Shown here one piece after another: positions 6,616-58,518 of a DNA stretch of 64,000 nt. Made by a program: the position numbers and the translations under genes. Below the pieces are notes generated by a model that was not told where the DNA came from, did not search any database, and saw only the letters and a program-made list of their open reading frames with translations. Position 1 is the stretch's first letter. The number at the start of each line of letters is the position of its first letter. This stretch comes from a virus. The DNA lies in IMG/VR virus record IMGVR_UViG_3300034108_000145, positions 1 through 64,000 of that record, one strand, 5' to 3'.

Positions 6616-6646
6616 AAAAAAATCTTTAAAGTTTAGAACTAAACTT
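6616..6646 (-). terminator. Rho-independent terminator after the 1099-aa gene
   Basis: On the minus strand an 8-bp inverted repeat (AAGTTTAG / CTAAACTT, positions 6629-6636 and 6639-6646) is followed a few bases on by a run of seven T (6616-6622). It lies just downstream of the stop codon at 6654 and directly upstream of the next promoter motif. It should end the long ring-muzzle-cargo transcript. Confidence 0.65.
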
Positions 6647-27036: not shown

Positions 27037-27042
27037 ATATTG

Positions 27043-27089
27043 TATTTTGGTATATGGTGTATAAAGCTATACTAAATATTTTGGTATAT
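27043..27089 (-). repeat. Two 13-bp direct repeats in the phosphoesterase leader
   Basis: The plus strand shows TATTTTGGTATAT at 27043-27055 and again at 27077-27089, with starts 34 bases apart. The upstream copy overlaps the promoter motif and the other lies close to the ATG at 27036. They could be operator sites or an RNA-binding target; nothing more can be said from sequence. Confidence 0.5.
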
Positions 27090-27102
27090 CAATAATTTAT
27101 AC
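27084..27102 (-). promoter_or_regulatory. Putative phage promoter (motif copy C, divergent)
   Basis: The minus strand reads GTATAAATTATTGATATAC, sharing the core AATTATTRATRTA with copy B. It lies 18-20 bases past the terminator T-run and about 48 bases before the phosphoesterase ATG. This is the most divergent of the six copies. Confidence 0.42.
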
Positions 27103-27121
27103 ACATTTTTTAAACAGTACT

Positions 27122-27157
27122 AAAAAGAAACCCCCGATGTAGAAACACCAGGGGTTT
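27122..27157 (-). terminator. Strong terminator ending the adhesion/fibre operon
   Basis: On the minus strand a 13-bp stem (AAACCCCTGGTGT / ACATCGGGGGTTT, two G-U pairs) with a four-base loop TTCT is followed by CTTTTTA. The wobble pairs favour the minus strand. A second hairpin with GTCAG/CTGAC ends lies just upstream at 27164-27190, so the operon seems to end at tandem hairpins. Confidence 0.8.
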
Positions 27158-27201
27158 TGTAATGTCAGGGAAACCAACAAAACCACTGACTTTTTTATAT
27201 T

Positions 27202-32508: not shown

Positions 32509-32534
32509 ATAAGTTTGTGTTTAAGTTTTAAGTA

Positions 32535-32552
32535 GTCTACAATATAATATAC
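32535..32552 (-). promoter_or_regulatory. Putative phage late promoter (motif copy D)
   Basis: The minus strand reads GTATATTATATTGTAGAC, which is copy A with one base deleted in the centre and one changed. It lies 20 bases after the terminator T-run at 32573-32579 and about 27 bases before the ATG at 32508. It should drive the 169-residue gene and the adhesion genes to the terminator at 27.1 kb. Confidence 0.58.
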
Positions 32553-32572
32553 ATTATTTTGGTGTAAATAAC

Positions 32573-32600
32573 AAAAAAACCACCCCAATTAATGGAGTGG
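32573..32600 (-). terminator. Rho-independent terminator after the 170-aa gene
   Basis: The minus strand has an 8-bp stem CCACTCCA / TGGGGTGG with a loop of about five bases, followed by seven T. One pair is T-G on the minus strand but a C/A mismatch on the plus strand, which supports minus-strand use. Confidence 0.8.
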
Positions 32601-32629
32601 TTTAGTATATATAGAGGAAAGCAGGGGGC

Positions 32630-53032: not shown

Positions 53033-53074
53033 TATGATAAACTTTAAATATTTATATAGATTGGAGAATACAAG

Positions 53075-53092
53075 TTCTCAATAATAATATAC
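53075..53092 (-). promoter_or_regulatory. Putative phage late promoter (motif copy E)
   Basis: The minus strand reads GTATATTATTATTGAGAA, matching the consensus at the first eleven bases and diverging at the end. It sits 20 bases after the T-run of the terminator of the 448-residue gene and about 43 bases before the ATG at 53032. It should drive the 20-kb fibre operon. Confidence 0.55.
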
Positions 53093-53095
53093 TAA

Positions 53096-53118
53096 TTTTT
53101 TGGGACATGTCCAAAAAA
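53096..53118. repeat. Palindrome GGACATGTCC flanked by T6/A6 next to a promoter
   Basis: The 10-bp perfect palindrome GGACATGTCC (53103-53112) is flanked by T6 on the left and A6 on the right. It lies between the terminator and the promoter motif, within a few bases of the latter. It may be an operator for a dimeric regulator or part of a second bidirectional hairpin. A related sequence (GGGACATGTGTCC) forms the loop-side of the adjacent terminator. Confidence 0.5.
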
Positions 53119-53149
53119 CAAAAAGGGAGGGACATGTGTCCTCTCCCTT
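53113..53149 (-). terminator. Strong terminator after the 448-aa structural gene
   Basis: The minus strand has a 12-bp GC-rich stem with one bulged A (AAGGGAGAGGACA / TGTCCCTCCCTT) followed by TTTTGTTTTTT. It lies about 24 bases past the stop at 53174. It isolates the head genes from the fibre operon. Confidence 0.82.
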
Positions 53150-53173
53150 AATGTTTAGATATTCTTAATATCC

Positions 53174-55684: not shown

Positions 55685-56701
55685 TTACTGCATCCAGTAC
55701 TTTTCAACTTTTTTAGTTAAGTCTATTAAAATCTCCTCGTTCAAAGGATTTTTTAAATATTCTACTACATCTGAAGGAGTTCTACCTAACATAGTAGTTG
55801 TTTGCATATGATAGATAAAGCCGTCTGATTTTGGAGCAATGAACTTAAAGTAGTTACTATCTTTTACAATAGATCTAATCTTTAATGTTTCCATATCTAG
55901 ATTAGCTGCATCTAAAAATCTCTGAGCGGTTTTACGCTTATCTTTTTCTACCAAGTCTCCGTTAATGTATTTATCCATGTTGTCATAGATAACGTCATTA
56001 GGTGTAGACTTTTTATATTGAGCACTATTTGCATCTAAAACTTTAGCTACATATAAGAGCTTGTTTTGGTTTTTATCAAATAGTTTCTGAAGTTCTGCAA
56101 GAGCTTTGTTACGAAGCTTCTTAACTTCAGTTTGTATAGAAGCAGTTTCTTCTAGCTTATCTAAATAAAACTTAGGAGGTACTGGCATTCTACGAGCGTC
56201 ATCAAGACTCTTTGCAACAATACTAAAACCACCTGCATCTATAGCGTATAATCTGATTAAATCATATGGATCTTTATCAGGTTCTAAGTACAAAGGTTCA
56301 TTACCGCATCTAATCTTAATCTTATCCCAGAAGTCGTTATTATCTGGTTTAAGAAGTTTAACCTTATTCCAAAACTGATCATCTGTTGGATCAATCACAT
56401 TGGAAGCTAATTCTTTTTCTAGTTGAGCTACTACAGCACGGATTTGTTTAATCTTAGCTTCTTGCTCTTCTAAAGGAAGATCTTTAATGTCTGGAGAAAA
56501 CTCATTTAGACCAGTTAAGTATCTTTTGATACCGTTGATTTCTAAACAAGCAATTGGTTCCTCGTGGAACGCTCCATCAAAAAGACTTAATCCGTATTTC
56601 TGTAATCCCATGTTATCCACTAAAGGATCAAAGAATGGACGGATTGCAATGCTTGAACGTTTGTTCTGTGGATACTTCTCCACAATAGTTACACTACTCA
56701 T
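55685..56701 (-). CDS. Head-associated protein of unknown function, 338 aa
   Basis: The protein begins MSSVTIVEKYPQNKRSSIAI. The N-terminal third is mixed alpha/beta, followed by long charged helices (EAKIKQIRAVVAQLEKELAS). Two short near-repeats, DDQFWNKVKLLKPDNN and NDFWDKIKIRC, lie near residues 106-132. A second helical region (EVKKLRNKALAELQKLFDKN) and a compact C-terminal domain (SDGFIYHMQTTTMLGRTPSD) complete it. It directly follows the capsid gene and its structured RNA element and precedes the ring protein gene, so a head or head-completion role is likely. I do not recognise the family. Confidence 0.66.
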   Translation of the reverse strand: MSSVTIVEKYPQNKRSSIAIRPFFDPLVDNMGLQKYGLSLFDGAFHEEPIACLEINGIKRYLTGLNEFSPDIKDLPLEEQEAKIKQIRAVVAQLEKELASNVIDPTDDQFWNKVKLLKPDNNDFWDKIKIRCGNEPLYLEPDKDPYDLIRLYAIDAGGFSIVAKSLDDARRMPVPPKFYLDKLEETASIQTEVKKLRNKALAELQKLFDKNQNKLLYVAKVLDANSAQYKKSTPNDVIYDNMDKYINGDLVEKDKRKTAQRFLDAANLDMETLKIRSIVKDSNYFKFIAPKSDGFIYHMQTTTMLGRTPSDVVEYLKNPLNEEILIDLTKKVEKYWMQ

Positions 56702-56731
56702 GTTTTGGTTTGTTTGGTTTTTATTATAACT

Positions 56732-56747
56732 GGTTACAAATGTAACC
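56732..56747. repeat. 7-bp inverted repeat GGTTACA-AA-TGTAACC before the 338-aa gene
   Basis: A perfect inverted repeat with a 2-base loop lies about 31 bases upstream of the ATG at 56701. On the plus strand TTTTATATTT follows, so it could serve as a plus-strand terminator; on the minus strand it may be an operator. Its role is open. Confidence 0.5.
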
Positions 56748-56760
56748 TTTTATATTTAGA

Positions 56761-56898
56761 ACCTATTAGGAGTTGCGAGCTCCCCATGTGATCATTCATG
56801 GTACGCATACAATAGGTGGCCTGAGGATACTATCCGCAGGGTGGTGTGAGTGTATCATTTGGCAGGGGATTTTAACCCCCTGCCTCAGATACTATTTT
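56761..56898. ncRNA. Structured, GC-rich RNA element after the capsid gene (orientation unclear)
   Basis: This 138-base stretch is about half GC in otherwise AT-rich DNA. Several helices nest cleanly. ACCTATT (56761-56767) pairs with AATAGGT (56811-56817) and encloses a GGAG/CTCC hairpin with a 7-base loop and a CCATG/CATGG hairpin with an 8-base loop. CTGAGG (56821-56826) pairs with CCTCAG (56883-56888) and encloses GATAC/GTATC (56826-56830 / 56852-56856) and an 8-bp GGCAGGGG/CCCCTGCC hairpin (56861-56884). On the plus strand it ends in T6 (56893-56898 region). On the minus strand it is the 3' untranslated region of the capsid message, and one hairpin looks like a tRNA T-arm. No family was recognised. 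Confidence 0.55.
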
Positions 56899-58518
56899 TT
56901 AGAATGATCCACCAGTTACAGGGTTTCTCATAACAATCTTCAATACTTTCGTAGGATCTTTAACCCAGATAGCAGGCATTGTTTGAGTCATGAACACACG
57001 GTAGCCGTTGAAGTTTCCAGAAGACTGGAAGCCTTGAGTACGACCCATGTAATCCATAGTACCGTTTTGATAGAACCACTTCAATTGATTATCCCAAGAT
57101 AACTTCAACAAGAAGATGTTGTCGTTAGTGTTCTCAGTGATATCAAAGATGATGAAATTATAAGAACTTAATGGGAAACCATCAATGATTGGGTTCTCAA
57201 TGTCATTAGTGTGGATGTTATCAAACGCTGGGTTCAATACAAACTTAACGTTAGCCAAGAACGGAATAACGTATTGAGTGTAAGCAAAACCAAAGTTTAG
57301 ATCCATACCTTTGCCAGTGATAGCACCAACTTCAGAAGCATTGATTACTAAGCCAGAGTTAATAGCCTCACGCTTAATAGCTTCATTAACAAGTTTCATA
57401 CCACCAAGACCTGTTTGTACAACTAAGCTACGCTTAGGATCTGGTCCTTGGAACTCAACTTTACCATTGAAGAAGTTGAAGATCTCAGACTTGAATAGAT
57501 CCAAGTTGAAACTACCTTTGTTGTAAATACGCTTGTAAGAGTTATCTAACTGCTTCCAAAGACCAACTGATAGACGAATATCATCTGGACCATCTTGCTT
57601 AACTTTACCACCTTGACCCCACATAAGGTAAGTTTCGATGTCGTTAGCAATCTTACTCAAATGAGCTGCTTCCATAGTAGTTAAGAATGTACGAGTTAAC
57701 TGACCAGATTGGTAAGCTTTCTTTACATAATCTTTACCCATTTTAGAAGCCATGTCTTCTAAGTTAGAAATAGAAGGATCTACGCTCTTGTCAAAGTTTC
57801 TCCAAAGCTCAACTACAGGAACTGTACCATCAGCTTTTAAACCACCTTTCATCATTAAGTCAGCACGAGAGCTAACAGAATAGTGAACGTGAGCTTCAGC
57901 ACCACCTACATAGTTGTAGAATTCACGGAAACCTGCACTGATGTTACCGATATCAGAGAAACGCTCACCGTATTCACCACGAGCAGAACCTTTACGGAAC
58001 ACCTTAGTACCAACTTTTAAGTACTTGTTATCCAAGAACTTAGCGTTGTCATTGTTTACAAGCTGAACTGTGTAAATGAAACCGTCACCAGCTGGGATGA
58101 TATCGTCAGCAGTGATGTACATTTCAACACCGTTGTATTTGTCATAAGTGATGATATCACCATGTCCAAAAGAACGCTTGTTTACTTTAATTTTGAAACT
58201 CTGTCCGTCAATGCCTTTTGTAGCATTAGCGGATTCTACATCTTCTGTAATGTAAGGTAGATCCTGAGTTACTGGGATCTGCCATTTGTACTCACCACGT
58301 GCGTTATCTACAGAGATAACGTTCTTTCCTCCAAAGCTAGACATCTGGTACAAAGGCATTTCTACCTTTTGAGCCATTGCCCATAAATCTACAGGACCTA
58401 AATCAGTAGGTTCTGCACTCTTAAGAAGGTTTGAAAGGTGGTAGGAGTCTACGTGTGAGCTAGTTGCATAGCTGGTATCTCGTAGAAATATACCATTGTT
58501 CAAAACTGGAGTTGCCAT
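56899..58518 (-). CDS. Major capsid protein, HK97-fold, crAss-like, 539 aa
   Basis: The protein (MATPVLNNGIFLRDTSYATS, then SSFGGKNVISVDNARGEYKW) resembles crAss-like major capsid proteins, which are usually about 490-500 residues. It has the expected mix: an N-terminal arm, a long spine-like helical stretch (LTRFTLTTMEAAHLSKIAND-like region near 280-300) and a beta-rich C-terminal half (PIIDGFPLSSYNFIIFDITE). Position also fits: it follows the scaffold-like gene, which follows the portal. It should build the icosahedral shell as pentamers and hexamers. The leader element matches that of the 448-residue gene, and a structured RNA follows the stop codon. Confidence 0.85.
   Translation of the reverse strand: MATPVLNNGIFLRDTSYATSSHVDSYHLSNLLKSAEPTDLGPVDLWAMAQKVEMPLYQMSSFGGKNVISVDNARGEYKWQIPVTQDLPYITEDVESANATKGIDGQSFKIKVNKRSFGHGDIITYDKYNGVEMYITADDIIPAGDGFIYTVQLVNNDNAKFLDNKYLKVGTKVFRKGSARGEYGERFSDIGNISAGFREFYNYVGGAEAHVHYSVSSRADLMMKGGLKADGTVPVVELWRNFDKSVDPSISNLEDMASKMGKDYVKKAYQSGQLTRTFLTTMEAAHLSKIANDIETYLMWGQGGKVKQDGPDDIRLSVGLWKQLDNSYKRIYNKGSFNLDLFKSEIFNFFNGKVEFQGPDPKRSLVVQTGLGGMKLVNEAIKREAINSGLVINASEVGAITGKGMDLNFGFAYTQYVIPFLANVKFVLNPAFDNIHTNDIENPIIDGFPLSSYNFIIFDITENTNDNIFLLKLSWDNQLKWFYQNGTMDYMGRTQGFQSSGNFNGYRVFMTQTMPAIWVKDPTKVLKIVMRNPVTGGSF

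Follow-up and report, generated by a model that had tools for sequence, protein, structure and literature searches.

A covarying, pseudoknotted RNA element behind the major capsid gene of phages related to the crAss-like group

The gap that follows the major capsid gene of this virus raises a question: Why is a short stretch of AT-rich phage DNA folded into an elaborate structure at this place, in which strand does the structure form, and what could it do for the capsid gene to which it is attached? We analysed a window of 64 kb, the first part of a virus record of 129,765 bases, in which a preliminary description had singled out 138 bases (56761-56898) as unusually GC-rich and ordered, leaving the strand open. 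This impression holds up well, for the GC fraction of the stretch is 0.478 versus 0.360 for the whole window, a richness matched by 0.07% of all 138-nt segments, and none of 1,389 sampled segments of the same length has a minus-strand fold as stable. The minimum free energy is -50 kcal/mol on the plus strand and -49.2 kcal/mol on the minus strand, with z values of -3.0 and -3.7, respectively, and no equally good fold among 200 shuffles; the entire gap (56702-56898) reaches z = -4.84, the strongest value among the nine gaps of at least 50 nt that were tested. The 338-aa gene beyond the gap occupies the position of the hypothetical protein lying between the capsid and ring proteins in csAssE-Sib, which has the same gene order: portal, structural protein, capsid, unknown protein, and ring protein.

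Comparison with 80 related phage loci, collected via the capsid protein and extended to more distant ones via a second query, resolves the gap on the capsid strand into modules A, B, and C, followed by a hairpin, E (table 1). In these relatives the gap may be shorter than 80 nt or reach about 1,900 nt, and some of them have a further structured module (D) or small genes inserted between the modules. The domain originally drawn as a 7-bp helix enclosing two hairpins corresponds to module C and is upheld by covariation, even if its pseudoknot had been overlooked; the other domain, drawn as one enclosed unit, is in fact made of two separate hairpins, A and B.

Table 1. Features of the capsid gap and its flanking genes (window coordinates, except for module D, which is given in the coordinates of related loci)
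Feature	Position	Strand	Basis or remark
Module C, 57-nt three-way junction with pseudoknot	56761..56817	-	pair counts (alignments A1, A4); model R1
C helix P1	56811-56817/56761-56767	-	7 bp
C helix P2	56797-56800/56785-56788	-	
C helix P3	56780-56784/56768-56772	-	5 bp
C pseudoknot	56804-56806 with 56775-56777	-	P3 loop pairs back into junction
UGAUCA palindrome, P2 loop of C	56789..56794	-	
Module B, hairpin CCUG-C-GGAU-AGU-AUCC-U-CAGG	56820..56840	-	alignment A6
Module A, 10-bp hairpin GGCAGGGGGU-UAAA-AUCCCCUGCC	56852..56892	-	folds; similar hairpin in relatives
Hairpin E GGUUACAUUUGUAACC	56732..56747	-	fold; precedes A/C-rich leader of 338-aa gene
Module D examples	L008:4673-4742, L011:4880-4949, L013:4678-4747 and others		
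Major capsid protein gene, 539 aa	56899..58518	-	PF23898 Crass_capsid E 2.9e-30; PHROG 11589 major head protein
338-aa gene after capsid gap	55685..56701	-	without family match

The strongest evidence for a conserved RNA comes from module C, for which the structure (((((((...[[[[...((((.........))))(((((..]]]].)))))))))))) was used. In a structure-free MAFFT alignment of 27 sequences (A1), 94% of the base-pair cells are paired and 14 of the 20 pairs show double changes. The extended alignment A4, with 50 distinct sequences aligned to a model built from those 27, raises these values to 95% and 16 of 20, its counts for the nested helices being biased towards the nested structure because the alignment was fitted to a nested model, from which the pseudoknot was absent. 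Doubly changed cells in A4 number 150 versus 33 in shuffles, and covariation is 0.488 versus 0.206 after shuffling (0 of 500 shuffles as high); sliding the partner strand yields 0.121 at best. These compensatory changes, which the preliminary description had named as the test of its proposal, thus exceed both kinds of control and identify C as a conserved structured RNA, a covarying junction with a pseudoknot. Helix P3 pairs in 100% of the A4 cells, while the pseudoknot comprises three pairs, the outermost of which (columns 15-55) is A-U in 33 sequences, G-C in 11, and C-G in five; a fourth pair (columns 11-58) was left out of the knot because it is C.A in 22 of the 50 sequences. Several unpaired positions do not vary: GUA in columns 8-10, C18, U54, and A58 are each found in 50 of 50 sequences and A17 in 49. 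The P2 loop carries GATC in 46 of the 50; its replacements UGGCCA and GUUAAC and a loop with a GUAC core are palindromic as well, the loop of L073 is not, and in seven truncated relatives (L021, L036, L046, L051, L053, L055, and L209) the P2 hairpin is missing or replaced. The covariance model R1 recognizes the C of the window with 75.1 bits (E 1e-17).

The same alignment settles the strand. Read on the capsid strand, the nested helices of the 50 C sequences contain 38 G-U against three A-C combinations; the opposite strand would give 38 A-C and three G-U, and hence the RNA is the minus-strand, capsid-sense one. All this agrees with the orientation of the C homologues, which are capsid-sense and downstream of the capsid gene, so that the element is tied to this gene on its own strand, as one of the two options considered at the outset had it, and a plus-strand RNA is rejected. 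The plus-strand T-run formerly taken as the end of such a transcript does exist (56895-56900), but it shares bases with the capsid stop codon and is not a general feature: L013, L028, and L059 are among the relatives without the corresponding A-run after the stop codon, on which ground a plus-strand terminator was also discarded.

Module B behaves like C, with double changes in seven of its eight pairs among 27 sequences (A6) and covariation of 0.521 versus 0.190 in shuffles (0 of 500), compensatory changes above the controls that again denote a conserved structured RNA. Module A is a GC-rich hairpin immediately after the capsid stop codon, with a 5-bp helix of its own, GUAUC/GAUAC, closing it, and has a hairpin counterpart at the same place in nearly all relatives; its sequence variants can be seen by eye in alignment A7 and in the hairpin list. 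In distant relatives a U-run comes after A, which gives it the look of an intrinsic terminator, whereas the clade of the window has none: two T are found within 8 nt after A on the minus strand, which falls short of an intrinsic terminator, and the terminator scan lists none on that strand at A. The sequence AUAGUAUC is present both at the start of A (56888-56895, minus) and in B (56826-56833, minus), and consequently the 3' arm of A, GAUAC, could pair with either; L013 is one of the relatives in which this duplication does not occur. Hairpins comparable to E precede the 338-aa gene in relatives. Between A and C, some relatives have module D, of about 70 nt (AACAGUACUCAG...CACCAG-CUGG-CUAAAACACC...CUGAGUC), which is absent from the window, shows more modest covariation (11 sequences), and has no match in Rfam.

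How tightly is C bound to the capsid gene? A pattern search blind to this gene retrieved 87 stretches, and R1 scores 68 of the resulting loci at 62 bits or more. A stricter pattern gave 48 matches that were placed relative to the capsid gene: 47 lie on the same strand at a distance of 69-431 nt past the capsid protein match; the remaining one, L145, belongs to a locus that ends 65 nt upstream, and its contig is that of L015, in which C does follow the capsid gene. The linkage has the capsid gene as the constant upstream partner. R1 finds exactly one copy of C in the 129,765-base record. Twelve further records, 111-131 kb long, each hold a single strong copy, and in one of them two faint additional hits score 17-19 bits. 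A tree built from 90 capsid sequences shows how C is distributed, its variants included (classes 'mini', 'alt', and 'alt3', assigned by model score or by eye): 52 of the 55 members of one clade have it, as do all five of a second and one of a third, but it is missing from a 23-member clade and from six other members. Roughly one in three of the capsid relatives sampled, most of them from one sister clade, has no C and just a terminator-like hairpin, which implies that C is dispensable for capsid expression in general. Three pattern matches in genome contigs, considered as possible host copies, were dismissed for having no R1 score. Blastn finds no match in annotated phages, and folding of the capsid gaps of five distant annotated phages revealed no C by eye.

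The Rfam search proposed in the preliminary description returned no family of Rfam 15 at the gathering threshold for the window and 18 relatives, and matches at E up to 10 were sub-threshold chance ones only; the papers searched likewise gave no description of the element. What follows the capsid gene here is a genuine, hitherto undescribed family of structured RNAs that shows good covariation and is linked to this gene. In crAss001, a TROVE protein is encoded (PMC8375218), but our record has no PF05731 match and a partnership of the TROVE/Y-RNA kind was rejected.

The surroundings of the element bear on what it may do. From C to the next start codon there are 6-77 nt in 39 of 41 loci irrespective of the gene that comes next, a closeness partly expected in a compact genome. 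The following gene varies, being the 338-aa gene, a 75-aa gene, fibre-like genes, or others, whereas on the upstream side most loci have either the capsid gene or a short basic gene located after it. A promoter-like motif, GTATATTATTaATGTAGA, is present in other gaps of the window, at 6618, 25684, 53095, and 59866 (minus), with weaker copies at 27105 and 32555, and is rare elsewhere in the record. The gaps at 27037-27201, 32509-32629, and 53033-53173 each have a strong terminator hairpin with a T-run on the minus strand, followed by this motif, and are likely operon borders. The capsid gap has no copy of the motif (the best score is 1.6 bits), an absence that is suggestive only, given that the gaps of this same window served to define the motif. 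On the capsid strand, the hairpins of the capsid gap all lack a trailing U-run. With neither signal in the gap, the element of the window appears to lie within an operon.

What, then, is the function of this RNA? The explanation we favor, to which we give about an even chance, is that A-B-C acts in cis between two cistrons of the capsid operon, defining or shielding the end of the capsid mRNA. Transcription would start from a putative promoter around 59866, upstream of a 423-aa gene, pass through the capsid gene, and end at the terminator-like hairpin of the 53033-53173 gap. A-B-C would then form downstream of the capsid gene, or of the small gene after it in relatives, and the pseudoknotted C with hairpins A and B would block exonucleases or frame a cleavage site; consequently, the capsid mRNA would outlast the downstream message and be translated far more. 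The structure, strand, capsid linkage, single strong copy per genome, and conservation on which this scheme builds are read from sequence comparison, while we infer the extent of the operon, the blocking or processing by nucleases, and the higher capsid yield. Among the functions proposed earlier, stabilization of capsid mRNA fits the context best, a small regulatory RNA or one for packaging or assembly being a less likely alternative. Counting against a mere roadblock, the GUA, AC, and UGAUCA loop of C are conserved more strongly than such a role requires.

Known systems offer partial parallels. In phage T7, the terminator Tphi and RNase III sites are found around gene 10, and the Tphi hairpin makes capsid output differ from that of subsequent genes. 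Like Tphi, our element puts a hairpin directly behind the capsid gene, and A in distant relatives is of a similar kind; in contrast, the fold of C is a pseudoknotted three-way junction, and in the window no U-run follows. The sib region of phage lambda is a 3' RNA structure, an RNase III hairpin that controls the upstream gene through RNases. It resembles the role predicted for C, namely a 3' structure in a phage message acting on an upstream gene, but differs in being a hairpin instead of a pseudoknotted junction. A bacterial counterpart is the L17 downstream element (RF01708; PMC2864571), a structured RNA in a 3' UTR that has been proposed as a protein operator. It shares with C the location behind one conserved, highly expressed gene, a function that is unproven, and the use of G-U pairs to argue for the strand; however, it accompanies a ribosomal protein gene of bacteria and is in Rfam, where C has no match.

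This last comparison leads to the alternative that a phage protein, capsid or other structural, or else a host protein binds the junction of C and feeds back on the translation or stability of the operon, as proposed for the L17 element. The invariant unpaired positions and the single copy next to the most used structural gene would suit such an operator, but the gene following C differs between relatives, and we regard the idea as rather unlikely. Less likely still is that C is released from the message, dimerises via the palindromic P2 loop, and serves in assembly or packaging as a trans-acting or structural RNA. The strict linkage to the capsid gene would accord with it, as would the palindromes retained in nearly all full-length copies and in three of the four loops in which the GAUC core is replaced, and GOLLD and ROOL RNAs are reported to form homo-oligomers (PMC12286853). 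However, the L073 loop and the seven truncated relatives escape the rule, the capsid gap of the window has no promoter-like motif, a sister clade exists without C, and a perfect inverted repeat may equally result from extension of the stem. The specific version in which an RNA in the tail of the capsid message dimerises through this loop and joins capsid assembly or packaging appears quite improbable; if true, it would represent an assembly RNA of tailed phages unrelated to the phi29 pRNA.

A resemblance to tRNA deserves consideration, since the preliminary description had noticed a likeness to a T-arm. The outline of the P3 arm, with its loop CUCGCAA, does justify the comparison: P1 and P3 stack 7 and 5 bp without a linker, in acceptor/T-arm geometry, the loop has 7 nt and contacts the junction, and the P2 loop is often a 7-nt CUGAUCA. 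Yet the likeness fails when tested, as ARAGORN finds no tRNA and the Rfam tRNA model does not appear at E up to 10 in three loci, results by which tRNA identity was rejected; moreover, C has neither a D stem, nor CCA after P1, nor a canonical T-loop, the equivalent of T-loop A58 being a pyrimidine that pairs with the junction, at variance with tRNA-like structures. That RNase P or RNase Z cuts C as a tRNA mimic, separating the capsid mRNA from the remainder, is accordingly very unlikely. We consider it even less probable that C is a riboswitch or a self-cleaving ribozyme, as its compact pseudoknotted junction with invariant core positions might suggest, given that no such Rfam class matches, the downstream genes vary, and the invariant core is small. 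Equally slim are the chances of an ordinary terminator or a fortuitous structure, a reading nourished by the terminator form of A in distant relatives: for C and B it is already contradicted by covariation far above the shuffled and slid controls, no U-run follows the hairpins of the window's gap, and the element is far more ordered than a terminator. A alone could be a former terminator.

The RNA family is of interest beyond this window. It has its own pseudoknotted fold, which has persisted over large divergence next to the capsid gene in a large group of uncultured phages allied to the crAss-like ones, and its alignment and covariance model are suitable to be offered to Rfam. It also provides a concrete, testable handle on how phages with long shared messages obtain a high output of capsid versus neighbouring structural proteins. 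Around C, the capsid gaps of L019, L030, L040, L047, and others harbour small cassette genes, which encode a Lys/Gly-rich peptide of 50-76 aa, a protein of about 75 aa with RLGKLVKVKN, and fibre-like proteins starting with PxSPD. In the position otherwise taken by C, the loci L014, L016, L018, L178, L179, L181, and L182 have divergent junction-like elements (e.g., CCUGUUGGGAACGUACCCUUGGGAGCUUACCACUCCAACAGG) that R1 does not recognize as C and that are possibly sister classes with another loop contact.
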